From positions 1 through 64,000 of the IMG/VR virus record IMGVR_UViG_3300000956_000001: a stretch of 64,000 nt of DNA, one strand, 5' to 3'. Shown here in pieces: positions 10,475-59,637 of this stretch. The notes below the pieces were generated by a model. That model was not told where the DNA came from and did not search any database. It worked only from the letters and a program-made list of their open reading frames with translations. The stretch is from a virus. The position numbers were made by a program, and so were the translations under genes. How positions within the stretch are numbered: position 1 is the stretch's first letter; each line of letters begins with the position of its first letter.

Positions 10475-10569
10475 GTGAAGTCCTGCTGCATGACGCCCTT
10501 GACTTTCCGTGTGTGAATTTCGTAGCTACCCTTGCAGCCATTCGGGCACCTCATGTTTGATTCATTCAT
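10381..10569 (-). CDS. Small zinc-ribbon protein
   Basis: 62 residues with two cysteine knuckles, CPNGC near residue 8 and CLMC near residue 33, separated by a beta-hairpin-like stretch: the shape of a zinc ribbon. Its ATG overlaps the stop of the Cas4-like gene by 4 bp (ATGA), so it is co-translated with it. Partner or nucleic-acid target unknown. Confidence 0.72.
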   Translation of the reverse strand: MNESNMRCPNGCKGSYEIHTRKVKGVMQQDFTCLMCQTPMELVVAIVHQQPSASPVRDQQNF

Positions 10570-11729
10570 GTCTTCTTCATCACCTTTACTTGAGGATCGC
10601 CCTGCTTGTAGCTGATCGCCGTATTCATGAGGCTAGCCTGTGCTGGACCGAGTCGCGGATCCTTGCGCAACGCATCCAGATCCCCCAGGTTAAGTCTACC
10701 GTAATCCTTCATCAGTTCCGGACCAATGATTGCAGACATGAGATCTCGATCGATGACTCGCTTTTTTGGAGCAACCACAGTTACCTTGTGGCGATCGAGA
10801 TCGAACTCAGTCATGTCCTCTTCGAGTGCATGCTTCATCATTGCAAGCTCGACGTCATCAATCGTTGACTTGATCGCTTCGACTTGACCCTTGAGCTGGT
10901 ACAGGAGTTCAGCCAGCTGTTCGATCGACAGCGTGAAGATGCCGCCCGCGCGCAGGTTGGATTGCAGTGCTTCGCACGTAAACCGCTTCGGACAGTACCG
11001 GCAGCCCTCGTTCAGTGTTTCCGGCGGATCCTCGAACGGAGTGTCTACGATGCGCTGAAGTTCCGCCATGAGGAACTTCCAGGTGTTGATGTTGTCCTGT
11101 TTGGTGAACAGTACGGCGACCCGCTCGTAGCGGAGGAAGTCGAACTGAACCCAGATTTCCTTTGCGTCAGGGAACTTGATCTGAACAGCGAGTGCGTACA
11201 GCTTCGGTTGGATCTTGTACTTCAGATCTTCCGGCTTGAGTGGCGTACGTTGCGACTTGTAGTCTACTACTCGGTAAACTCCTTCATCAAGCTTGTCTAG
11301 GCGGTCAATGATGAAGTTGCACGGCATTTCATAACGGACGTTATCAATCCAGTAAGGAACAACAAAGGTTTCCTTGATTTCACGAGAGATGATCTCGTTG
11401 TCAAGGATGTCATTCTGGATGTCGTTGCGGCCGTACCACTTCTGAAGGATGGCAAGACCATCATGCCACCATTCACCCTCCATGGGCTGACCCACGAATG
11501 TGAGTGCCCAGCCCTTCATGTAACCTTCGAGGAGGCGCTCCCATTCCCAGGCCATCGTTGCGACGTATTCTGGTTCGAGGAAGTACTCGAGTGCATAATG
11601 GAGCGTGGTACCAAGCCAGGCAGGCTCGCTGCCCTTGCCGGTACCACGCTCCATTGCTGTGGCCTTGAATCGGGCCATGCATTCGGCGGCGGTAGTCAGC
11701 GACGATGCACTGATGGACTTAGGAATCAC
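10566..11729 (-). CDS. Cas4/RecB-family PD-(D/E)XK exonuclease
   Basis: 387 residues. RecB-type nuclease motifs are in order: GTTLHYALE (about residue 40, metal-binding His), IIDRLDKLDEGVYRVVDYKSQ (about 140-160, the D...DYK catalytic core) and IQPKLYALA (about 170). A cysteine near residue 17 plus the cluster CRYCPKRFTC (about 243-252) would hold the 4Fe-4S cluster of Cas4/AddB-type enzymes. The C-terminal ~120 residues are an extra helical domain. Such phage enzymes resect DNA ends for recombination-dependent replication; no Cas1, Cas2 or CRISPR array is nearby, so a CRISPR role is unlikely. Confidence 0.88.
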   Translation of the reverse strand: MIPKSISASSLTTAAECMARFKATAMERGTGKGSEPAWLGTTLHYALEYFLEPEYVATMAWEWERLLEGYMKGWALTFVGQPMEGEWWHDGLAILQKWYGRNDIQNDILDNEIISREIKETFVVPYWIDNVRYEMPCNFIIDRLDKLDEGVYRVVDYKSQRTPLKPEDLKYKIQPKLYALAVQIKFPDAKEIWVQFDFLRYERVAVLFTKQDNINTWKFLMAELQRIVDTPFEDPPETLNEGCRYCPKRFTCEALQSNLRAGGIFTLSIEQLAELLYQLKGQVEAIKSTIDDVELAMMKHALEEDMTEFDLDRHKVTVVAPKKRVIDRDLMSAIIGPELMKDYGRLNLGDLDALRKDPRLGPAQASLMNTAISYKQGDPQVKVMKKT

Positions 11730-12135: not shown

Positions 12136-12383
12136 ACTGTATTCTCGTTTCCGTGCGCATGCAGAACAGTACGCTCGAGTTCTGCACGAAGATCTGATGC
12201 GAGTTGTGGTAGGTCATTCTCGCATGCGTCTGCATACGCAGAGAGTGCTATTCTGGCGTACGGGTCCTGAGCATAGTCAAGAACAAAGTAACTTGCTCCA
12301 TCTTTGTCGCCACCTGGTAGATCGCGACCATCAAGACGGCGAGTTTCAAATTTCGCGTACATTCCGTCGCGAGGCTTTTTCAT
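12132..12383 (-). CDS. Hypothetical protein
   Basis: 83 residues; its start overlaps the WhiB-frame stop (12380-12382) as ATGA and its stop overlaps the next ATG. N-terminal half is polar and glycine-rich (KFETRRLDGRDLPGGDKDGASYFVLDY), C-terminal half helical. Not recognised. Confidence 0.68.
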   Translation of the reverse strand: MKKPRDGMYAKFETRRLDGRDLPGGDKDGASYFVLDYAQDPYARIALSAYADACENDLPQLASDLRAELERTVLHAHGNENTV

Positions 12384-12826
12384 GCCTGTTGCTCCTTGGG
12401 CTCCAGCTGATTTCCGTGTGTGGAGCGAGTGCGACGCTTGCCGCCCCAGATGCCAACTCTCGCACCCGCCCTGTCAGCGTAGTCATTACATTCGGATCGT
12501 ACCGTGCATCGCATGCAGTACTGAAGTACTGCTAGTTCGCTGGTTTCTCCGCGTCCTGGGAAGAAGAGATCAGTGCTGCTGGAAGCGGCTCCAACTCCCA
12601 GGCAGGCGGCGGCTGAAATCCAAGGCTCGTCGACAAGCTGAGGGACGGATCCGACGGGCTCGATTCCTTCTCCGCAGATGCAGGGGTGACCGGCTCGGCC
12701 GACAGGGAACTCGGATGTGTTGGGTTCGCTGGCTCCGTCGGGGACGGGGGCGTCTCTGAGGAACCGCTTCCGGAGTCGCTCGCACTGTCGGTTGCAGACG
12801 AGGTCACAGCTTTTGGGTCCACATCA
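12380..12826 (-). CDS. WhiB-like Fe-S domain lacking its own start codon (probable -1 frameshift product)
   Basis: This frame is open from a TGA at 12824-12826 to the TGA at 12380-12382. Its C-terminal ~70 codons read as a WhiB domain: W-ISAAAC, then TDLFFPGRGE, YCMRCTVRSEC and GVGIWGG-like GARVGIWGG. The four cysteines are spaced C-x28-C-x2-C-x5-C. There is no ATG, GTG or TTG anywhere upstream of the domain in this frame. The 0-frame gene at 12532-13101 overlaps it and carries a slippery CCCAAAA at the very start of the overlap, so the protein is probably the C-terminal part of a fusion. WhiB proteins bind a 4Fe-4S cluster and sigma factor and regulate transcription. A sequencing indel is the main alternative. 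Confidence 0.75.
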
Positions 12827-13101
12827 GCTGGAGTCTCAGCTTCCTGCGTCTCTGCTGCATACTTCGCTGCGTTCTCGGCGATGATCTCGTGGGCCGTCTT
12901 CTTCTCGATCACTGGTTCGACCTCAGCCAGAACCCGAGGACGCACGTCGCGCACTGCATCAGCAGTGCGCGACGGCGCGAAGATCATGATGGGGATAACC
13001 TCTGTCGCCTTTTCGGAGGGTGGCGGCGTTGGCACCGTACTGCCCGTTGCGACTGATACTGCCATGCTGTACGGCTTGAGTTCACGCGGCTCGTTATCCA
13101 T
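12532..13101 (-). CDS. Upstream frame of the WhiB-like gene (unshifted product)
   Basis: 189 residues if read without frameshift. The first ~97 (up to PADVDPK) have ordinary composition, including a helical VLAEVEPVIEKKTAHEII segment. The rest is almost pure Ser/Pro/Thr/Ala/Glu, which looks like the shadow of the overlapping WhiB frame, although a disordered tail is possible. SD AGGGAAG lies 5-10 bases before the ATG at 13101. A -1 shift at 12811-12817 would join residues 1-97 to the cysteine-rich WhiB part, giving about 240 residues in total. Confidence 0.68.
   Translation of the reverse strand: MDNEPRELKPYSMAVSVATGSTVPTPPPSEKATEVIPIMIFAPSRTADAVRDVRPRVLAEVEPVIEKKTAHEIIAENAAKYAAETQEAETPADVDPKAVTSSATDSASDSGSGSSETPPSPTEPANPTHPSSLSAEPVTPASAEKESSPSDPSLSLSTSLGFQPPPAWELEPLPAALISSSQDAEKPAN
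12811..12817 (-). promoter_or_regulatory. Candidate -1 ribosomal frameshift site, C CCA AAA
   Basis: In the 0 frame the codons GAC CCA AAA form the heptamer C-CCA-AAA, which fits the X-XXY-YYZ rule for tandem -1 slippage. It sits 6 bp after the last stop of the -1 frame (12824-12826), exactly where a functional site has to be, and leads straight into the WhiB-coding frame. I could not identify a clear downstream pseudoknot by eye. Confidence 0.6.
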
Positions 13102-13110
13102 GATGCTTCC

Positions 13111-13860
13111 CTAGAACATTGCCTCCTCTGCCGTATCGAACTTCTTCTTCGCGATCTCATAGTTGTGCGCGCTCAGTTCGATTGACACGCAGGAGCGCTT
13201 TTCTGCTCTCGCTGCGCGTACCGTACTTGAACTGCCACCGAAGGGATCAACGATGAAGTCGTTGGGCGAGGTGCTGTGACGAATGAGTTCGCCAAGGAGT
13301 GCGAGTGGCTTCTCGTGGGGATGGATGAGGTCCTGCGGTCGCACCTGTGGATACCGGAGTACCCCGTTGCGACGTTCTGTGGATCTGGGCCGATTCCCCT
13401 TCTTAAGGAAGATGATGAACTCGTACCCAATGCCCCATCCATCGAGGTACCCCATCCCCGGGCCATCTTTCTCCCAGATCAGCGGGCTGCCTACTCGACG
13501 AAATCCGTGACGCCCCAAATCATCCGTTACCTGAAGCCATTCCTTCAATACCTGCCCAGACGTGAACACGTACAGATCCGCGTTATCGGCGGTTTTTGGC
13601 AACAGGCTATCCATCACGGAATTAAAAGTTGCGATGGCAATTTCAGGAGTCTCGTCATTCGCGATCTTTCGTGCGTTCGCCTTCCCCTCTGCTGTTGTCG
13701 CCATGTTGCTCTGATTGTTCACTCCGAATGGCGGATCGGTAATCACGCAGTCCACTGAGCCCGGGTGGAAGCGCTGACATAGCTCGATCGAGTCGCCGTT
13801 CCAGATCTGTTGGAACAGGGGCTTGGGTCTTGGCGTTGTCGGCTCTGCCAGTGTCGTCAT
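13111..13860 (-). CDS. DNA methyltransferase (N6-adenine or N4-cytosine)
   Basis: About 249 residues from the ATG at 13860, which has CGGAG 6-7 bases upstream; an earlier in-frame ATG at 13917 is less likely. Motif IV is VITDPPFG near the N-terminus, and the SAM-binding motif I is VDPFGGSSST near the C-terminus followed by SIEL. This order (catalytic before SAM-binding) is that of the beta class. No restriction endonuclease is adjacent, so it is probably an orphan phage methylase protecting phage DNA or marking it for replication or packaging. Confidence 0.88.
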   Translation of the reverse strand: MTTLAEPTTPRPKPLFQQIWNGDSIELCQRFHPGSVDCVITDPPFGVNNQSNMATTAEGKANARKIANDETPEIAIATFNSVMDSLLPKTADNADLYVFTSGQVLKEWLQVTDDLGRHGFRRVGSPLIWEKDGPGMGYLDGWGIGYEFIIFLKKGNRPRSTERRNGVLRYPQVRPQDLIHPHEKPLALLGELIRHSTSPNDFIVDPFGGSSSTVRAARAEKRSCVSIELSAHNYEIAKKKFDTAEEAMF

Positions 13861-14104
13861 CTTCGGCTCCGAGGGTTTCTTTTGGCAATGATCTGAGTGC
13901 GGCGCCCAAGAGGGCAAGCGGATTAAGTGCCTTGACTGGGAATCCCGTTATCCGTGTGCGCGCCAGTCCGAAGACTCCTTCTCCTCGGTCCGCGTAGGCG
14001 AGCACTGTATAATCAGCGAGTTCACCCTGGTTTCTGAGTTCAGTCTGTGTGATTTGGATATCACCAACGAATCTGCCGTTTTCATCGTGCAGTATGACTT
14101 TCAT
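13655..14104 (-). CDS. Hypothetical protein overlapping the methyltransferase
   Basis: 149 residues. The first ~80 (HDENGRFVGDIQITQTELRNQ, then LARTRITGFPVKAL) look like an ordinary small folded protein. The last ~68 codons run in the +1 frame over the start of the methyltransferase and become Arg/Ser/Pro-rich, so the tail may be little more than read-through to the first available stop. Starts with a 4-bp overlap to the gene upstream. Not recognised. Confidence 0.6.
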   Translation of the reverse strand: MKVILHDENGRFVGDIQITQTELRNQGELADYTVLAYADRGEGVFGLARTRITGFPVKALNPLALLGAALRSLPKETLGAEDDDTGRADNAKTQAPVPTDLERRLDRAMSALPPGLSGLRDYRSAIRSEQSEQHGDNSRGEGERTKDRE

Positions 14105-15020: not shown

Positions 15021-15383
15021 TTACACCAGCTCCATCAACGGTGGTTTCTGATCAGGCAGGTAGTAGTATACACTATACCCGCATGATAGTGCAAGTTCGA
15101 GTTCGGTTCGCGCGCCTATCGATTTCGACCACCCAGGCATCAGAATAATGGAGTTGCACGTCATTAGAAGGTTGACAGCGTGCGCCATGTATGAACTGTT
15201 GCTTCGTGCGGCGCGCTGGAATTCAGTCTCGTCCTTGAACTTCGAGTGCGGCGAGGCAATTTCGAGCATGTGGTCTTCGAGTTGCCGCTTGGCCTTCTCA
15301 AATCCATCGTAGTTAAAGTTTGGCAGGCCCGTCATCGGACCTGCCAAATAGAACTTCTTTCTGATCATTTCACTCGCATTCAT
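15021..15383 (-). CDS. DUF4406-type nucleoside deoxyribosyltransferase-like protein
   Basis: 120 residues. Opens with KKFYLAGPMTGLPNFNYDGF, the hallmark of the DUF4406 / nucleoside 2-deoxyribosyltransferase-like fold, followed by a conserved SPHSKF segment and SIILMPGWSKSIGARTELELA, which corresponds to the substrate-side Glu helix. Phage members are thought to act in nucleotide metabolism or on modified nucleotides. The enzyme reaction is not established. Stop is adjacent to the RusA start and its start overlaps the upstream stop. Confidence 0.8.
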   Translation of the reverse strand: MNASEMIRKKFYLAGPMTGLPNFNYDGFEKAKRQLEDHMLEIASPHSKFKDETEFQRAARSNSSYMAHAVNLLMTCNSIILMPGWSKSIGARTELELALSCGYSVYYYLPDQKPPLMELV

Positions 15384-17020
15384 TAACCCTCCAGTTCAGC
15401 TTCGATCACCAGCCTATCGAGACGAACCACGTAGACTGGACGTGTGAGATCTACTTCATAATGCGCGCGGTCGAGACGAATCTTGAATGTAGGAACTTGC
15501 GCTGCAACTACACTGCCGTCAACGAGGCTAGTGTATCCGAATCGTTCGGAGCTGTGAACCGCTCCAGGCGTAAGCGTCTGCGTTATCGGCGAACCGAGGG
15601 AGATGCTACCGAAGCGCTCCGTTGTGTCTGATGTGCCAGGTGATAGAGTCACCGCGCCTGGTGCGAGCGATGCCGATCCGAACCGCTCCTGGCCCGGAAT
15701 TGTGCCCGGCGTGACGGTCACAACGGGGGCGCCTAGAGCCACGCTCCCGAATGCTTCCCCCGATTGGGTAACACCGGGTGCCATGGATACAGCACCGGGC
15801 GCCAGCAGTGCTGAACCCGTACGCTCCTGCGATGCAGACGAACCAGGTGATAGCATCAATACGCCGGAGTTGAGAACCGACGTACCGAACTGCTCGCCTA
15901 CGGGCGCCACTCCTGGTGTCAGTGTCACTGATCCGGGTGCGAGTGCAGAACTACCGAACCGCTCGCATGACCTACTCGTGCCCGGCGCAAGGTTGACAGC
16001 ACCCGGCGCAAGTACCAGAACTCCGAATCGCTCGCCCGACCCAGACCCACCGGGGGAAAGGTTTACAGTACCAGGCGCAAGAACGTTTGTGCCGAATCGC
16101 TCGCCCGTAGCCGAGACACCTGGCGTTACTGTTGCTGCGCCCGGCGTTAGCGTCGGACTGTTGGCTCGCTCCTGACTGCGAACACTTCCAGGAACAAGCA
16201 GGGCTGTTCCAGGTACAATGACAGGCGATCCGAAGCGCTCTTCCGTACGAGCAGTTCCAGACAGAATTGTTACGAGTCCTGGAACAAGGATCCCACCAGT
16301 GGTGCGCTGGTCGCCACCATCCATCGTGCCTGGTGTTACCGTCTGACTTCCGCCACCCGTTACTGCAGGCGTGACAACAATGCGGATGATGATGGATTCT
16401 TCAAAGACATCGCTGTTCGTCCACACCGCCGTTGAGATCGCACCAGCAGTAGCCTGAACTGCCCTGCCGAGTGCAAGTCTCATGTTGTTGTTGCCGTCCG
16501 CACCCTGGATGTCCTGAACTTCAGTCCAGGTCAGTCCAGATGCGGGAACAGTCCAATTAGCAACATCAGGACTGAACTGCCGAAGGGCAGCGAAGTCCAT
16601 AACGAGGCCATCGTCAGTAGTGGAAGTAACCGACGGCGGTGTATGGTTGGTGCCAGGCGCGCTCTGCAGTGAGGCTACAGCGTTTGTGAATGTAGTTCCA
16701 TCTGCACCACGAACGAGAGCGCCAATGCACGACGTTCGACCAGAACTGCATGTCCAAGTATACGTCGTACTGGCAGCTGGATTCTTCTTCCACCAAGCAC
16801 GAATGGCTCCACCGCCTGTGGCGATAGAGTTATCTGAAACGCTAAATTCGGTCCAGGTAGCATCAGGCTTTGTCATGGCATCTGCATTTGCAGACCCAGC
16901 AATACAGACTACAAGATAGTCATTCGTTGTTGGGTTTGCATCTGTGGTGACGCCCTTGCCAATGTTGCCACCGTCGCCTTGTACTGAGGTATACGAGGTG
17001 ACGACACTTGCTGCAGTCAT
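15383..17020 (-). CDS. Virion-like protein with twelve 23-residue repeats
   Basis: 545 residues. Residues 1-217 form a beta-rich domain (TSYTSVQGDGGNIG, then GLVMDFAALRQFS) like those of phage decoration or fibre proteins. Residues 238-495 are a run of about 12 units at almost exactly 23-residue spacing, consensus ERFGSxxLAPGAVxLxPGxSxSx, a likely beta-solenoid. The last ~50 residues (KIRLDRAHYEVDL, VYVVRLDRLVIE) form a small beta domain. No enzymatic motif. Lies with two other virion-type genes in the early strand, far from the tail operon. Could be a head fibre or surface protein. Confidence 0.72.
   Translation of the reverse strand: MTAASVVTSYTSVQGDGGNIGKGVTTDANPTTNDYLVVCIAGSANADAMTKPDATWTEFSVSDNSIATGGGAIRAWWKKNPAASTTYTWTCSSGRTSCIGALVRGADGTTFTNAVASLQSAPGTNHTPPSVTSTTDDGLVMDFAALRQFSPDVANWTVPASGLTWTEVQDIQGADGNNNMRLALGRAVQATAGAISTAVWTNSDVFEESIIIRIVVTPAVTGGGSQTVTPGTMDGGDQRTTGGILVPGLVTILSGTARTEERFGSPVIVPGTALLVPGSVRSQERANSPTLTPGAATVTPGVSATGERFGTNVLAPGTVNLSPGGSGSGERFGVLVLAPGAVNLAPGTSRSCERFGSSALAPGSVTLTPGVAPVGEQFGTSVLNSGVLMLSPGSSASQERTGSALLAPGAVSMAPGVTQSGEAFGSVALGAPVVTVTPGTIPGQERFGSASLAPGAVTLSPGTSDTTERFGSISLGSPITQTLTPGAVHSSERFGYTSLVDGSVVAAQVPTFKIRLDRAHYEVDLTRPVYVVRLDRLVIEAELEG
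15536..16309 (-). repeat. 69-bp tandem coding repeat, about 12 units
   Basis: DNA behind the 23-residue repeats. The Glu-Arg-Phe-Gly positions fall at residues 261, 284, 307, 330, 353, 376, 399, 422, 445 and 468 without a single slip; one residue is inserted before the last unit at 492. The units are diverged in sequence, so selection rather than recent duplication keeps the period. Confidence 0.88.
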
Positions 17021-32067: not shown

Positions 32068-35010
32068 CTACCTCGCTGTCAGGATTTTTCCGATGAATTC
32101 AATCACCTTGATGACGTCTTCGTCGGAATCCACTCGAACTGTAGGCAAGCCATACCTCGATGGTGAATCAGTCTGGATGCCGACGCAGACGAGGTGAATA
32201 CCCTGTCGCTTGTATTCCTTGATCTCACGCTCAAGAATGACGAGTTCTTCATCCTTGTTCGCGGCTGGCATCTGACCATCCGTGAAGTAGATCACGATTC
32301 GGTCGGTTGCCCTGTGCTGCATTGCGATTTTGCGGTAGTACTCGAAGCTGTGACCGTCGAGGTTGTCACTGATCGGAAGTACGCTCGCCAGCTTCTCCTT
32401 GGCGGCATCATTCCACGCCTCGTGTTCCTCCTTGAACGGAAGGAAGTAGTTGTAGAACTGCGTACCGCTACCCATGGGCCGGAATGGCTTCAACGGAGAA
32501 GGGAATGCGCTGTGCATATAGCCAGCCCACGGCACGCCGACGCGAGTCAACAGATCCGACAGGCCGTGCATAATGCGCTTGATCTTCTCGTTCCGCATGT
32601 TGCGGTCCGTGCTGAATGAAGCGTCGCCACCCAGGATCACGAAGTAGTCTCGCTTTGCAGGGACGACCTTCTTCTGGAACAACCTTGGATCATTGACCGG
32701 CGCTCGTCTACCCAGCACGCGGGTGTTGATGCGACCAGACTTGCGGTTGCGGTCGTGTGCTGCGCGGAGGTTGTCATCGAAGACGCGGCGTGACTGTAGT
32801 ACGACACGTCCGATGAGTGATTCCGCAGGGGCGAATAGCTCTGGCAAATCCTCAATGGCGCAACCGTGATGCTGTGCCGCCATGGTCGGATCCCACTTGA
32901 TCCCCCAGTGTGGGTACTCTGCTATCTCGTTGCCAGCGACTTCGATGCTGGGCGCATCGAACTGCCCAACCTGGTTGATCGCCAACTCGAGAACCCGTAG
33001 GATCTTGTAGTCGTAGTCCTTGCCATCCTCGTAGCCGAGGATCTCGGTCAGATCGTCGTCGGATAGCGTGTCCAGTAGGCCGTCACGATCGCCAGCACCG
33101 TGAACCAAGAACTTGGATAGGTCCCGTGCTACATCGTCCGGGGTGCCGTGATCCATGTCGGATGAAGCATCCTGCGCCTGGCTCTGCGTTGGGGTCGGCA
33201 TCGGACCGTGCTGCTGCGAGCCAGCACTGCCGAAGATGTCCTCCTGGTTGTCGATATCCCAGGGGTTGTCCGACTCTAGATCCAGAGGGTAGTCAGGCTC
33301 CCCATCTTCGGCCTCGACCTCAGCATCAGAGTCGCTATCGCCGTCTGAGGCCACAACCTCGTCACTTCGATCATCTCTTGCTGTCGGCTCGACATCCCGT
33401 CCAGCGCATGACTCTGATGGAATGATCTCTCCGTCAGCACCCACTTCCGATGGCGCCTCGTTCCCGGCATTGCCGACTTGACTTTCCAGTTCACCGCTCC
33501 CCTGAACTGTCGCACCTTGCTCACCCGACCCACTGATACCAGCAGCGTCGGTCGAGTTGGATTGCGCATCAGATGACGAATCAGCCATGCCTGCTTCAGG
33601 GCTGGAACCCTCTCCAGGAACGTCTCCTCCAGCTGATGCGCTGTCAGACACGGACGGATCGCCTTCACTGACCTGATCGCCAGGTGATCCCCCGGAGGAA
33701 GGAAGTGATGTACCGTCATCTAGTCCTTCACCTCCACTACCAGCCCCCGCTCCTTCAGATCCTCCAGTAGAATCTGCATCGCCCGAATCGCTTCCCCCTG
33801 GACCTGAATCAGTTCCGTCGCTTCCCGAATCGCTGTCGCTTGTTCCTGGATCAGCTGATCCTTGCTCGCCAGCTTCGCTCTCAGGTCCTCCAGAGCCATC
33901 ACTGACCGAGTCATCGGTACCGGAGGAGGATCCGGAATCTCCTTCGCCGGTGCCGGAATCCCCAGGATCCCCGCCGGACTCAGGCCCGCCCTCGCCATCG
34001 CCTGCCTCATCGCCAGACCCCTCGGCGTCTCCATCGTCGCCAGTTTCGCCATTTCCCTCAGGCTGAGGCTCGGCTGGGGGGTCCACAGGATCCTCAGGTT
34101 CGCGGACACACTTCGGAACCAAGCAGAAACCAAGTTCCTGCGCACGTCGGAACACCTCCAAACTCAATACGAAGATGCCGTGCGCATCCTCGACAAACAG
34201 TGCTCGATTGCAGATGTTGATGATCTTACTGTCAGCCAGCGCAATCTGCACATCAGGATGCAGTGTGTCCTGCGTCTGATAGTTTGCGGCTACCATCTGC
34301 AGGCCGATCATGAACTGCGAGTCGAGTGGCGCCTCTGACCAGGACAGATACTGATCGATACCGACCTCGGAGCCCTCAGTAAGGAGGCGCTCCATGTTCA
34401 TCGTGAAGATGTGCTCCATGCCGGGCCGCGCCGTGAACGTCATCCGATTGACTCGACAGTCCTCAAGTACATTGAAGATCATCGGAAGGTACGGATTGAG
34501 CACGTTCAACAGGGTCATCGAGTCGCACGTCCGGCTGCGCACGTAGCCGAGTTCGTTGCGAACAAAGCTCCAGTGCTCGCAGTCATAGTGATGCCACTCG
34601 TTGATGTATTCTTGAGTCAGATCGAAGGACTGTCTTGAAGCCTCAATCTGCGTCTTGCCAGCAATATGCGCAATCTCATGGAACAGGTAGAAATCGATAA
34701 CCTCACGGATCTGGCACGCCTGACATACCTGTTTGCCAGAAGCATCTCGTTCACCACACTTCGAGCGAAGATGGGGCGTCTTGGACGCAAGCCCCAATGG
34801 CGGCCGAATGAAGATCTTGTTGCCCTTGGTGTGCGGAGTGTCGGTTGTGATCTCAACCTGCACCTTGGCGTTACCCGTCGCAGTGCGCGCGAAGTGAACG
34901 AGCTGTGGCATCATGCCACGAAGAACCTGAACGGCCTTCCATGCAGTCTCTTGTGCGGTAGGATCAAATCCAGGCACTCCCCTACCGCTCCTAGACCTTG
35001 CCCTTGCCAT
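32068..35010 (-). CDS. CobT-like protein: zincin-type domain plus acidic linker plus VWA domain
   Basis: 980 residues from the ATG at 35010, which has a strong SD (GGGAGGTGATC); the 18-codon extension upstream lacks one. N-terminal ~330: a metallopeptidase-like domain with FHEIAHIAG (HExxH) and Cys pair CQACQIRE. Residues ~330-640: an extremely Gly/Ser/Asp/Glu-rich disordered region. C-terminal ~250: a von Willebrand A domain with MIDAS residues in GGDASFSTDRN and FTDGQMPAA. This is the layout of CobT-type partners of MoxR AAA+ ATPases, and such an ATPase is encoded at 35543-37171. It probably acts as the substrate adaptor in that pair rather than in cobalamin synthesis. Confidence 0.82.
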   Translation of the reverse strand: MARARSRSGRGVPGFDPTAQETAWKAVQVLRGMMPQLVHFARTATGNAKVQVEITTDTPHTKGNKIFIRPPLGLASKTPHLRSKCGERDASGKQVCQACQIREVIDFYLFHEIAHIAGKTQIEASRQSFDLTQEYINEWHHYDCEHWSFVRNELGYVRSRTCDSMTLLNVLNPYLPMIFNVLEDCRVNRMTFTARPGMEHIFTMNMERLLTEGSEVGIDQYLSWSEAPLDSQFMIGLQMVAANYQTQDTLHPDVQIALADSKIINICNRALFVEDAHGIFVLSLEVFRRAQELGFCLVPKCVREPEDPVDPPAEPQPEGNGETGDDGDAEGSGDEAGDGEGGPESGGDPGDSGTGEGDSGSSSGTDDSVSDGSGGPESEAGEQGSADPGTSDSDSGSDGTDSGPGGSDSGDADSTGGSEGAGAGSGGEGLDDGTSLPSSGGSPGDQVSEGDPSVSDSASAGGDVPGEGSSPEAGMADSSSDAQSNSTDAAGISGSGEQGATVQGSGELESQVGNAGNEAPSEVGADGEIIPSESCAGRDVEPTARDDRSDEVVASDGDSDSDAEVEAEDGEPDYPLDLESDNPWDIDNQEDIFGSAGSQQHGPMPTPTQSQAQDASSDMDHGTPDDVARDLSKFLVHGAGDRDGLLDTLSDDDLTEILGYEDGKDYDYKILRVLELAINQVGQFDAPSIEVAGNEIAEYPHWGIKWDPTMAAQHHGCAIEDLPELFAPAESLIGRVVLQSRRVFDDNLRAAHDRNRKSGRINTRVLGRRAPVNDPRLFQKKVVPAKRDYFVILGGDASFSTDRNMRNEKIKRIMHGLSDLLTRVGVPWAGYMHSAFPSPLKPFRPMGSGTQFYNYFLPFKEEHEAWNDAAKEKLASVLPISDNLDGHSFEYYRKIAMQHRATDRIVIYFTDGQMPAANKDEELVILEREIKEYKRQGIHLVCVGIQTDSPSRYGLPTVRVDSDEDVIKVIEFIGKILTAR

Positions 35011-35056
35011 GCGATCACCTCCCTTTTCACTGACACTCGGTACTGACACTCTAGGG

Positions 35057-35087
35057 GGTGCCACGGAGCCTGCCGATCCGTGGCACC
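35057..35087 (-). terminator. 11-bp hairpin before the CobT-like gene
   Basis: Perfect stem 35057-35067 / 35077-35087 with a 9-nt loop, between the acidic protein and the CobT-like gene. No U-tail; could be a terminator, attenuator or processing site that sets expression of the large gene apart from the ATPase. Confidence 0.6.
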
Positions 35088-35542: not shown

Positions 35543-37171
35543 TTACTCCGTGAAGTGAGAGTTGATAGTAGTTGTCATCGCCTCCCACTGCGCGGGTTCG
35601 AGCGCGTCTCCGATTGCCCGACGATAAGCCGTGACTGGATCGAAGTACCTCAGGGAGCGGACGAGTTTGATCTGATGACGAAGGCCCCAACTGGTGTGCA
35701 GAACGCCATTTGCGGCCGATTCACGAAGCTCCTTGGCGGCTGCCATGACGGACTTCATCTGCTTCTCCGGGACCACCCAACGGTCGCGCTCAACACGACG
35801 CTGGAGAATCTTGATCTCCAGCTCCTCGGGCGGATAGTCGAAGAACACATGGGACATGCGACTGTTATCGGCATCGGCAATCATCTGTGCGCCGACATTC
35901 AGTACGCCCCACTGAGGATTCATCGCCATGAAGAAGTAGCAGTCATCATGACGGTAGTACTTCTGGTCGTGCAGGTGGGCGAGCTTCAGGGTCTTCCGAT
36001 TGTCCATGAGTGGACGGAAGAGTTGCCAGATCTCTGCAGGTGCAGTGTTGGGCTCGTCGGCAAGCAGGATACCCGGCCTCGACCACCCGATTGGCAGCTC
36101 CCCGAGGTGAGCTACCGTCTCGCCGTTCTCGAAGAGCATCTTTCCTGCAACGCTATCGATCTCGGAGCTACCGTCGAGGCCGATATACCGGAATGGCGCC
36201 TGCATTTTCCAGGCGATCCATCGACCCATTTCGGTCTTGCCAGTACCGGCCGCTCCCCACGCAGCTGGCACCTCGTCCAGTTTCATGAACAGAACGGCGA
36301 AGGTGTACAGCAGTCCACCGTGATCTGCGTAGTCCTCAGGAGCCTCGCGATCACCAGTGTTCGGGATCAAGTCAAGGTCGTCATCATCGAACAGACGCTT
36401 CTTTGACTTGCCATCAGGCGTCAAGACCATGGCATCACGATCGAAGATGGGCAGGTATACAGGCTCCCCGTACCCCTTGGGGTCTTCGACCTTGCGCCAA
36501 GCGCGGATGCCTCGCTTGAGGCGCATTGCATCACTGACTGGACGATCGGTCTGGTAATCCTTGGGGTCGACGAAGTGTGTGAGTGATGACTCGTACTGTT
36601 GCGCGACGTCGATCTCGCCGAATGTTGCACTGTACTGCGGAAAGAAAACAAACGTCTTCAGTGGGTCAACCGGGCGGATGCCAACCTGACGTCGGAAGGT
36701 GCCGCACTTCTGTGCGTACAGATTCAGACGCGCGTTGGGCATAAGCGATCCGGTCGCTCGGCACAGACTGCCAGTCCAGCCGGTAACCTTCTTGACCTCA
36801 ACCTGGTCGACGTAGTTCACGCAGCTGATACAGTTCGGAGCGTCGCTTGCGTCCGGGAAGGATCGATGTGCCGACGCTGCCTCTGCATCCATGCCGACTC
36901 GCAGAATCGGTGCAGAGTTGGGACCAAGCGGCGTGATCTCGCCAGAGTATCCGAAGTCGCCACAGTTAGCGGCAATCTTCTTCAGAACCCTGCGACTTGT
37001 GTCGGCACCCTGCACTGGCTGGATGAGGGGCAGCATCTTGAGACCACAGACAGGCGAGGCGATGTTCGTCGACAGCGCATTCGTTTGAGCAGCGCCCGTG
37101 AGGAACGAGGGACACGTACGGCACGTGCGCTCGACTGTCGTTGGTCCAGTGGCGGTCGTGGCAGTAGTCAC
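35543..37171 (-). CDS. MoxR-type AAA+ ATPase with cysteine-rich N-terminus
   Basis: 542 residues. N-terminal ~200 hold several Cys pairs (CRTCPSFL, CISCVNYVD). The AAA+ core begins about residue 305: Walker A GAAGTGKTEMGRW, Walker B GILLADEPNTAP, sensor 1 FFMAMNPQW, and a C-terminal lid (SWGLRHQIKLVRSLRYFDP). The Walker B and AMNP-type sensor fit the MoxR/CbbQ branch. MoxR ATPases act with VWA-domain partners as chaperones or remodelers. Here two VWA proteins (32068-35010 and 39970-40767) lie within 5 kb. Confidence 0.85.
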   Translation of the reverse strand: MTTATTATGPTTVERTCRTCPSFLTGAAQTNALSTNIASPVCGLKMLPLIQPVQGADTSRRVLKKIAANCGDFGYSGEITPLGPNSAPILRVGMDAEAASAHRSFPDASDAPNCISCVNYVDQVEVKKVTGWTGSLCRATGSLMPNARLNLYAQKCGTFRRQVGIRPVDPLKTFVFFPQYSATFGEIDVAQQYESSLTHFVDPKDYQTDRPVSDAMRLKRGIRAWRKVEDPKGYGEPVYLPIFDRDAMVLTPDGKSKKRLFDDDDLDLIPNTGDREAPEDYADHGGLLYTFAVLFMKLDEVPAAWGAAGTGKTEMGRWIAWKMQAPFRYIGLDGSSEIDSVAGKMLFENGETVAHLGELPIGWSRPGILLADEPNTAPAEIWQLFRPLMDNRKTLKLAHLHDQKYYRHDDCYFFMAMNPQWGVLNVGAQMIADADNSRMSHVFFDYPPEELEIKILQRRVERDRWVVPEKQMKSVMAAAKELRESAANGVLHTSWGLRHQIKLVRSLRYFDPVTAYRRAIGDALEPAQWEAMTTTINSHFTE

Positions 37172-39969: not shown

Positions 39970-40767
39970 TTACGCCCGAGTCAGGACGCCAGCCGCGAGA
40001 GCGGCCTGGGTCCAGGATGCCCACTCGACCAGCATGGCGTCGGCGAACTCTGCCTCAGAGCATGCCAGCAGGTCACGCTGGTACGTGCTGCGCTGGGTGT
40101 TGATGTTGTCGAGCAGACGCTTCGGGCCGGTGTATCGGTCCACGTAGTCGAACAGCTCGACGTGCCTGACGACGATCGGCTTGATGAAGATCGGGTAGCG
40201 CGACGTCTCCCAGAACAGGTCGAGCGTCTCGTCGTCGTACCGACGGTTCGAGTTGTCGCCGTCCGACAGGATCGCAGCGTGGATCGGCGCCTTGGCCTTC
40301 TTGCCGAGCTTGATGAGCGCCTTGAGTGGCTGACGCAGGTCCGTGCCGCCCATCCGTCGACGACCACCGAGTCGAAGCTCCCGCTCGATGATGCCTCGAT
40401 AGTTGCTCACGGAGGCTGTGATGCCCTCGTAGATATCCCCATCGAAGCCGATGACCGGAACCTGTCCGTCAACATCGATCTGGAGAACGAATCCCAGGTA
40501 GCGCTCCGCCATACGCTGGACGGCGCCCGAACTGTACTCGTTGGCCATTGAGCCGGAGTGGTCGACGATCAGAACGCCGTCCGCCTTGACGCCATTCTGG
40601 CCAGCCTTCTTGAGGCTGATGCCAGCGGCGCGCGCGTTCTTGGCGAGACCCTCGTGACCGGTCTTCTCCAGTGCCTCCAAGTCGATTGCCGACTCGTCGA
40701 CGTTGGGCCGGTAAATCAGCGGTGCCGAGTGGGCGACCGTGATCTTGTTGCCTGGCATGCCGAACAT
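39970..40767 (-). CDS. VWA-domain protein
   Basis: 265 residues from the ATG at 40767, which has GAGGAGG 4-5 bases upstream. MIDAS residues are intact: DHSGSM (D-x-S-x-S), GGTDL (Thr) and SDGDNSN (Asp). The fold continues with FGFVLQIDVDGQVPVIGF-like strands. Resembles phage VWA/TerY-type proteins. Likely a second partner of the MoxR ATPase at 35543-37171, although separated from it by a terminator and three genes. Confidence 0.82.
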   Translation of the reverse strand: MFGMPGNKITVAHSAPLIYRPNVDESAIDLEALEKTGHEGLAKNARAAGISLKKAGQNGVKADGVLIVDHSGSMANEYSSGAVQRMAERYLGFVLQIDVDGQVPVIGFDGDIYEGITASVSNYRGIIERELRLGGRRRMGGTDLRQPLKALIKLGKKAKAPIHAAILSDGDNSNRRYDDETLDLFWETSRYPIFIKPIVVRHVELFDYVDRYTGPKRLLDNINTQRSTYQRDLLACSEAEFADAMLVEWASWTQAALAAGVLTRA

Positions 40768-40880
40768 GTTCCTCCTCGTTGGGTATGGGGAACGCGATAG
40801 CCGAGACACCTCCTGAAACAGGCGGCCTCTTCCAGTCTCGACTACCGCCGCACTGGGCCTAATCCCTCCCAGTACAGACT

Positions 40881-58232: not shown

Positions 58233-58747
58233 TATACCTGTCAAATCTTTGTCCACCTGCCCAGAAGGCGAAACCAGCTCAGCCACCTAGGATTCGCACT
58301 GAAGTACGTAACGCCACGTAATGAGTAACGGAGACGATAGGGGGTATCGGTGACGGTCCCATGATCGTTTGCCACGAAACCTAAATGGCCTGTGACCTGC
58401 ATATATATAGGGTTTAGGGGTTTAGGGGGTTTTAATTTTAAAAATCTAATATACCTAGCTCTGACTTGGTTTTCGTCACTGTCCGTAGACGCTGGGTGGT
58501 GGGGGAGCATCTTGGGGTATAGACCCGTATAAGATGGTTTGCCAATCTGGTTGGGTGTGGGGGCTTATAGGCGAAAAAAACCCCGGAACCCCTAAACCCC
58601 TATTTGATCTATGTTTTCGCAGGTCAAAACCCCTCCCGAAACCTCCGCCGAAACCCCCCCCGAAACCCCCCTATGATCATCTAGACAGCGTCCCCGAAAC
58701 CGATAACGTCCCCGAAACCCCTCGGCAAACGGAAAAAACGGACAGAG

Positions 58748-58797
58748 CGATGGCCCGGTCCGTGAGATCTGCAGTGTCTCGCGCGGCCGGGCCATCG
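58748..58797. terminator. 11-bp stem-loop in the C-rich region
   Basis: CGATGGCCCGG (58748-58758) pairs with CCGGGCCATCG (58787-58797); the loop itself contains a GAGA/TCTC dyad. It lies downstream of the - strand primase operon and may terminate it. Confidence 0.6.
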
Positions 58798-58849
58798 TCT
58801 GAAATATGTAGTTATCAGGGGTTGTGGGGACGATCCCCGAAACCTACGA

Positions 58850-58862
58850 AACCTATCCTAGC
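58850..58862 (-). promoter_or_regulatory. Orphan TAGTGCTAGGATA element
   Basis: Same 13-mer as the promoters at 30.07 and 37.43 kb, right after the stop of the gene at 58864, but without a TTG-type -35 box at 17-18 bp and without a gene downstream. A weak promoter into the non-coding region or a relic. Confidence 0.35.
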
Positions 58863-58863
58863 A

Positions 58864-59637
58864 CTACGGTTTCGGGGATTCGGGGGTTTTGGATTGCGTC
58901 CCCGAAACCCCCGTGATCGTTGCGTTGACGTACTCGGGTACGTCGGGTCGGTAGGTGAGGTGCAGGAACCTGTAGAGTTTCAGGGGGGTATCCAGCTGAA
59001 TATAGGGGGTTGACTCTTGGGTTGGAAGTACTGGACGGTTCGTCTGATGGGTATAGACCGTCCAGGCAAACAAGAGTGGTTCGATCGCTGCGTACTGAGG
59101 AACCGACAGCTTCAGCTGGCTGTAGCGTGCAGTACGGGAGCTAACTGTCGGCTTCAGGCCCATTCTGACCAGGCGAAGCTGGGATGTTTCGTTCTGTGCA
59201 TCACGTCTCGCACGCCTGCAAAGAGGTCCCTTGCAGCCCTGCCTGTAGGTGAGTGACGTGCCATGCGTGCTGCTGTAGTCGGGATCTGCCAGCTCTGAGG
59301 CAATCAGATCCAGAACGATGACGTGTCGTTCTGGAATATAGAACCCCAGTTTCGGTACCCTGACACAGCGTTCGTGTTCTGTGAAACGGATGCTGAGTTC
59401 GTTCGGTGCGAGCTTAAGCGTCCTAGGAAGCCGCTCTGCTTTTCCAAGAGGTGGTTGGATCACGAGCATCTCTCTCAGTGGAATTGATGAAAGACTGACT
59501 TGAGTAGTGACTGGCTTGTGGTTGTGACGCGCGCCAACTGAGTTAAGGTCGAAGTGCGGATTCGCGAGACTCGTGAAGTCAGTCATCTCGTCCATCGTGC
59601 CATACTCGGCCCGGTAGCCCTGCATGCCCTTACTCAT
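58864..59637 (-). CDS. Hypothetical protein with HGT...GC...CR motif
   Basis: 257 residues from the ATG at 59637 (GTG at 59640 also possible). Middle segment STHGTSLTYRQGCKGPLCRR follows a Cys/Arg-rich pattern seen in many actinophage proteins, of unknown role. C-terminal residues ~185-235 (PQYAAIEPLLFAWTVYTHQT, LKLYRFLHLTYRPDVPEYV) form a helical domain. The last codons are written in the CCCCGAAACC repeat. Coupled to the primase-helicase by overlap. Confidence 0.66.
   Translation of the reverse strand: MSKGMQGYRAEYGTMDEMTDFTSLANPHFDLNSVGARHNHKPVTTQVSLSSIPLREMLVIQPPLGKAERLPRTLKLAPNELSIRFTEHERCVRVPKLGFYIPERHVIVLDLIASELADPDYSSTHGTSLTYRQGCKGPLCRRARRDAQNETSQLRLVRMGLKPTVSSRTARYSQLKLSVPQYAAIEPLLFAWTVYTHQTNRPVLPTQESTPYIQLDTPLKLYRFLHLTYRPDVPEYVNATITGVSGTQSKTPESPKP

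Follow-up and report, generated by a model that had tools for sequence, protein, structure and literature searches.

A WhiB-like protein of actinophages apparently produced by −1 ribosomal frameshifting at a conserved slippery heptamer

How can a phage produce a WhiB-like protein from a reading frame in which the WhiB domain is not preceded by any start codon? The question is raised by a locus on the minus strand of a 64,000-nucleotide stretch of viral DNA (positions 1 to 64,000 of the IMG/VR record IMGVR_UViG_3300000956_000001), which is referred to as the window. A first-pass annotation, made from the sequence of the window alone, had proposed that the protein is made by −1 ribosomal frameshifting within an overlapping gene, and this proposal was followed up by a comparison with related phages.

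Overlapping frames, domains and gene neighbourhood in the window

The frame-0 gene starts with an ATG at position 13101 and, read without a shift, encodes a protein of 189 amino acids (12532–13101, minus strand, as are all features of the gene given below), in which an N-terminal part is followed by a Ser/Pro-rich tail. The WhiB domain is encoded by another frame, which overlaps this gene and is open between 12823 and 12380. As stated in the first-pass annotation, the slippery heptamer CCCAAAA (12817–12811) follows the last stop codon of the WhiB frame, a TGA at 12826–12824, at a distance of 6 nt. The heptamer is read C_CCA_AAA in frame 0, its context being GAC CCA AAA in frame 0 and CCC AAA AGC in frame −1, and lies between the two overlapping frames in the classical X_XXY_YYZ phase for a −1 shift. 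Shifting at this site is predicted to fuse 95 frame-0 residues, encoded by the N-terminal codons common to both products (12817–13101, with a frame-0 third-position bias in relatives), to a frame −1 extension of 145 amino acids plus stop codon (12380–12817), which is reached only via the shift. The phase bears out the proposed joining of upstream residues to the Cys-rich and WhiB segments and gives a fusion protein of 240 amino acids. The frame-0 tail 3′ of the slip site (12532–12816) comprises 94 codons and is dual-coding.

The WhiB frame had been described as lacking any start codon. This is correct for the region ahead of the domain, where no ATG, GTG or TTG is found in the window, but not for the entire frame, which contains one ATG (12514–12512). 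Since this codon is located inside the domain, past the second of the four WhiB cysteines, it can not yield a whole WhiB domain.

The WhiB domain (12434–12622) is recognised by the Pfam model PF02467, which matches residues 161–222 of the 240-residue fusion with 39.1 bits at a cut-off of 23.6; a further PF02467 score is 42.4 bits. All features previously read from the translation, namely the four Fe-S cysteines, the tryptophan, LFFP and GIWGG, are present in the fusion, and both the family signature C...C-x2-C-x5-C and the G-[IVM]-W-[GA]-G turn are invariant in 24–25 members. Moreover, the WhiB part matches the WhiB/WhiB1 structures 8dy7, 5oay and 6ono in profile comparison (E-values of 1e-16 to 4e-12) as well as in fold. 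By analogy with the family, it would bind a [4Fe-4S] cluster and region 4 of sigma-A. In addition to the four cysteines of the WhiB domain, the frame −1 part contains four further invariant cysteines (Cys8, Cys12, Cys46 and Cys48 of the extension) in a C-x3-C ... C-x-C-G-E-G module (12674–12796). This module is absent from the Pfam WhiB model and is likely to form a metal site. An AlphaFold2 model of the frame −1 part reached a pLDDT of 66–67 and is usable for the WhiB part only, not for the Cys module. In the N-terminal part, the alignment displays a loosely conserved P-(V/I)...D-F-R-P motif, represented by RDVRP in the window.

Upstream of the gene is an N6/N4 DNA methyltransferase gene (13111–13917, minus strand, PF01555), and downstream a gene for a Cas4/RecB-like PD-(D/E)XK exonuclease (10566–11729, minus strand, PF12705), which is the neighbour in relatives as well. 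The order DNA methylase, frameshifted gene, Cas4/RecB exonuclease is common to many relatives; the upstream methylase is also found in TIN4, GTE7, ReqiDocB7, Demosthenes, Woes and Perlina, and is replaced by a RusA gene in GordDuk1, Camerico and Jumbo. Elsewhere in the window, three genes situated near each other on the minus strand (32068–35064, 35543–37171 and 39970–40809) were assigned by reading their translations only. One product, of 998 residues, combines an extended low-complexity region rich in Gly, Ser and Asp with a VWA-like C-terminus; the others are an AAA ATPase (MoxR-like) and another VWA-like protein, and the three genes possibly represent a phage system of the MoxR-VWA type. 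In the protein encoded at 15383–17020 (minus strand), repeats of the type LAPG.V.L.PG....ERFGS occur many times, and a fibrous or structural role in the phage is probable. A region of short genes harbors simple tandem DNA repeats, translated PKPPPKPPPK (58534–58900).

Conservation of the split gene and the heptamer in relatives

In a single genome, the A4 homopolymer of CCCAAAA is a typical site of error, and a base missing there from sequencing or assembly would split one ordinary gene in just this manner. Relatives of the gene bear directly on this explanation. With the window protein alone as query no close viral relative was found, and the window displays no similarity to phages at the DNA level. 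Searching 50,697 phage records by tblastn with the frame −1 part, about 140 records were matched, mostly from Gordonia phages but also from phages of Tsukamurella and Rhodococcus, so that the hosts of these relatives are soil actinobacteria. For profile searches N-terminal sub-alignments were used, the whole alignment of 25 rows being too diverse. The relatives examined comprise 13 phage lineages of Gordonia, Tsukamurella and Rhodococcus and 8 metagenomic viruses; the loci read are those of GordDuk1, Camerico, GMA3, RobinSparkles, Diabla, Jumbo, TIN4, GTE7, ReqiDocB7, Demosthenes, Woes, Chelms, Orchid, Perlina, PokyPuppy, Hollow, Linetti, Poland, GordTnk2, GMA7 and Kvothe. Every locus read has a frame-0 ORF upstream and a WhiB frame, together with a canonical heptamer placed exactly in −1 phase. 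The heptamer is CCCAAAA in six phage groups (GordDuk1/GordTnk2, Camerico, GMA3, RobinSparkles/Orchid, Jumbo and ReqiDocB7/Perlina) and in the 8 metagenomic viruses, and a different canonical heptamer, CCCTTTA, in the remaining phages read, including Diabla, TIN4, GTE7, Demosthenes, Woes and Chelms.

A DNA pattern around CCCAAAA retrieved 13 stretches from IMG/VR, all 13 of them true members and 8 metagenomic. Since this pattern presupposes the heptamer, a codon-blind search of IMG/VR was added with the peptide patterns PK[RS]L[IV]C[TS]G[IVA] and PFRC[TN]G[IV]C, allowing all synonymous codons. The heptamer, either CCCAAAA or CCCTTTA, is present in 12 of 12 and 10 of 10 confirmed relatives from these searches, a total of 22 that overlap the loci read and are not all independent. 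An IMG/VR scan with a CCCTTTA pattern returned unrelated matches among its results too. When the fused Diabla protein was compared with the 50,697 phage records, it matched as two pieces spanning exactly 3n−1 nt in each of the 60 best records, none of which contains an uninterrupted version of the gene. Homologues with an unsplit gene or without the heptamer were looked for, and none was found among the relatives; both frames and the heptamer are retained in every relative examined. Judged by this conservation, the arrangement of two frames and a heptamer is far beyond chance. More than 20 independent lineages, among them many isolate phages that were sequenced separately, are split at this very base, and the split is also found at the different heptamer CCCTTTA. 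A sequencing error is refuted by these relatives, and its probability can be regarded as negligible.

In 84,980 bacterial and archaeal genomes the peptide patterns revealed no relative, and the fused gene therefore looks phage-borne. It encodes the only WhiB of its phage in 10 of 11 relatives checked, and likewise the only one in the record of the window. Besides the frameshifted gene, the RobinSparkles group possesses another WhiB gene of the ordinary kind, which has a frame of its own (gene 55, locus L004, 432–803).

In public databases the two halves are described separately. Homologues of the frame-0 product are annotated as hypothetical protein or as "endonuclease" (PHROG 6890; also PHROG 14812), a label that is found in RefSeq as well as in PHROGs; the frame-0 proteins tested gave no Pfam or NCBIfam match, and hence no recognisable nuclease domain. 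The WhiB half is annotated as a truncated WhiB or missed. PHROG 11832, a family of 33 residues listed with unknown function, represents the end of the WhiB domain, split from the frame-0 families, and an example of the split annotation is locus L005 (2199–2621 and 2696–2797). Dozens of deposited genomes are thus wrongly annotated at this gene, whose family is common among sequenced Gordonia phages.

In several phages annotators have placed separate WhiB starts, as would be expected if translation of the WhiB frame began independently at a hidden or non-canonical start within it and the overlap were a coincidence. However, most members lack an ATG, GTG or TTG ahead of the domain (14 of 24), and in the others the starts are mostly located at or beside the first tryptophan of the domain, without a good Shine-Dalgarno (SD) sequence. 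Moreover, conservation of the frame −1 protein already begins at the proline encoded by the heptamer, and an internal start gives no reason to retain the rare codons of the heptamer. Independent initiation is consequently very unlikely.

Codon choice, selection and candidate stimulatory signals

The rarity of these codons can be estimated from the codon usage of the window, which gives a chance of 0.0036 per gene for encoding P-K-R as CCC AAA AGR and of 0.0064 for encoding P-F-R as CCC TTT AGR. TTA, the frame-0 A-site codon of the CCCTTTA type, is used for none of the 590 leucine codons of the window and is almost never used in the exonuclease genes that neighbour the locus in ten relatives. 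In a protein tree calculated without the residues of the heptamer, end branches of 0.5–1.5 per site separate most members, and the heptamer type changes once (98/96 support).

Substitutions between close relatives are found mainly at frame-0 third positions before the heptamer and at frame −1 third positions after the frame-0 stop, while they are spread across codon positions in the overlap in between. Diabla and Woes, for example, differ at positions 1, 2 and 3 by 15, 11 and 38 substitutions before the heptamer, by 8, 7 and 9 in the overlap, and by 2, 2 and 15 after the frame-0 stop, the last values referring to 59 codons of the WhiB frame. Judged from this pattern, purifying selection acts on the WhiB frame beyond the frame-0 stop. 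The missing start codon could also indicate a decaying pseudogene, with the WhiB half cut off by an old frameshift. This reading is refuted by the substitution pattern, and all eight cysteines are invariant across deep divergence, leaving it barely conceivable. The frame-0 tail has a length of at least 46 codons in 20 of 20 members, which is rare under random synonymous codon choice: a test on minimum tail length gave about 1e-5 for 12 distinct members, and a Fisher test on tail length was not significant (p 0.19). Selection on the tail of the short product, too, is suggestive only.

Across the family, the average energy of SD-like 8-mers peaks at −4.9 at position −12, compared to a mean of −1.4 (s.d. 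1.3) over all positions. The peak corresponds to 8-mers starting 15–11 nt before the heptamer; the motif recurs 7–15 nt upstream of it in most relatives, and the internal SD of the window itself is weak. The folding z-score of the family is lowest just 3′ of the heptamer (−0.9 versus about −0.2 elsewhere). The downstream structure is modest and has no common shape among relatives, with a hairpin directly 3′ of the heptamer in some of them. The internal SD-like sequence of most relatives and, in some, the downstream hairpin probably stimulate the slip.

Slippage of RNA polymerase would join both frames equally well. Transcriptional slippage typically needs long homopolymers, well above 3–4 bases, whereas the runs present here consist of only three or four A, or of three T in the CCCTTTA type. 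In addition, the full X_XXY_YYZ phase is kept, including the CCC part, which fits slippage of two tRNAs. A transcriptional origin of the second frame is hence extremely unlikely.

Proposed mechanism and comparison with known systems

The WhiB frame could in principle be reached by a route other than a ribosomal slip. A programmed −1 ribosomal frameshift nevertheless explains the gene with a probability that we estimate at about 0.94, and the comparative evidence strongly supports this part of the initial proposal. Support is provided by features established by comparative sequence: two frames, a conserved heptamer, the −1 phase, constraint that switches frame, and the lack of starts. Ribosomes would start at 13101 and translate the N-terminal part. 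Most of them would read CCA AAA in frame 0 and release the short protein with its Ser/Pro-rich tail. A fraction would slip back by one base, with the P- and A-site tRNAs presumably re-pairing on CCC AAA, and enter the frame that has no start of its own. The resulting minor form of 240 residues would combine the shared N-terminal part, the C-x3-C/C-x-C module and a [4Fe-4S]-type, sigma-factor-binding WhiB domain. In this way, the efficiency of the slip would set how much WhiB product is made during infection relative to the product without WhiB, and would limit, as the first-pass annotation had also suggested, the dose of the long form, which may act on sigma-A-dependent promoters of host or phage. 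By analogy with gp49 of mycobacteriophage TM4, the long form probably redirects host transcription.

More doubtful is a regulated switch, in which slipping at the rare AAA/TTA codon together with the internal SD would sense the state of the infected cell, and an eight-cysteine WhiB with two metal sites would be directed or antagonised by the N-terminal part. Lytic actinophages would then exert translational control over host sigma-A promoters. The gene offers a direct way to test how the dose of a sigma-A-contacting Fe-S regulator is controlled by a lytic phage, and Diabla, a phage of Gordonia terrae 3612, represents a ready laboratory system.

To our knowledge, most of the established frameshifts that are conserved among tailed phages belong to tail assembly chaperone genes. 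In the literature searched, which was not exhaustive, no published report of a frameshifted WhiB or of this gene as frameshifted was found. No such case appears in the WhiB census of actinophages (PMC8612146), nor in the phage frameshift survey PRFect (PMC10885494) and, as far as searched, a NAR review (PMC5009743). While −1 frameshifting and WhiB proteins are each known, a start-less regulator reached only by frameshifting and conserved across distant actinophages seems to be new.

Among phage proteins, gp49 of TM4 and gp53 of Hammy likewise possess a WhiB domain with four Fe-S cysteines, and TM4 gp49 has been reported to down-regulate host whiB2 and to inhibit growth (as cited in PMC10700055). 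Both are encoded by short genes that stand alone and possess a start, whereas the gene described here has no such start for its WhiB frame and adds an N-terminal part and a second four-cysteine module. In comparison with actinobacterial WhiB/WhiB1, the structural matches span the WhiB domain only, and the bacterial proteins have neither the C-x3-C/C-x-C module nor a frameshift.

With dnaX of E. coli the gene family shares a heptamer and an SD-like sequence upstream of it, which is weak in the window; the slip of dnaX is stimulated by a downstream stem as well. In contrast to dnaX, where the slip leads to a shorter product, slipping here would add an entire Fe-S domain. A parallel in layout is found in lambda G/GT and the tail assembly chaperones of actinophages, in which a −1 slip at X_XXY_YYZ, conserved over distant phages, gives short and long proteins with a common N-terminus. 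Unlike these tail morphogenesis genes, the gene is situated in a non-structural, replication-type region, and its deeply conserved frameshift would yield a transcription regulator instead of a tail assembly chaperone.
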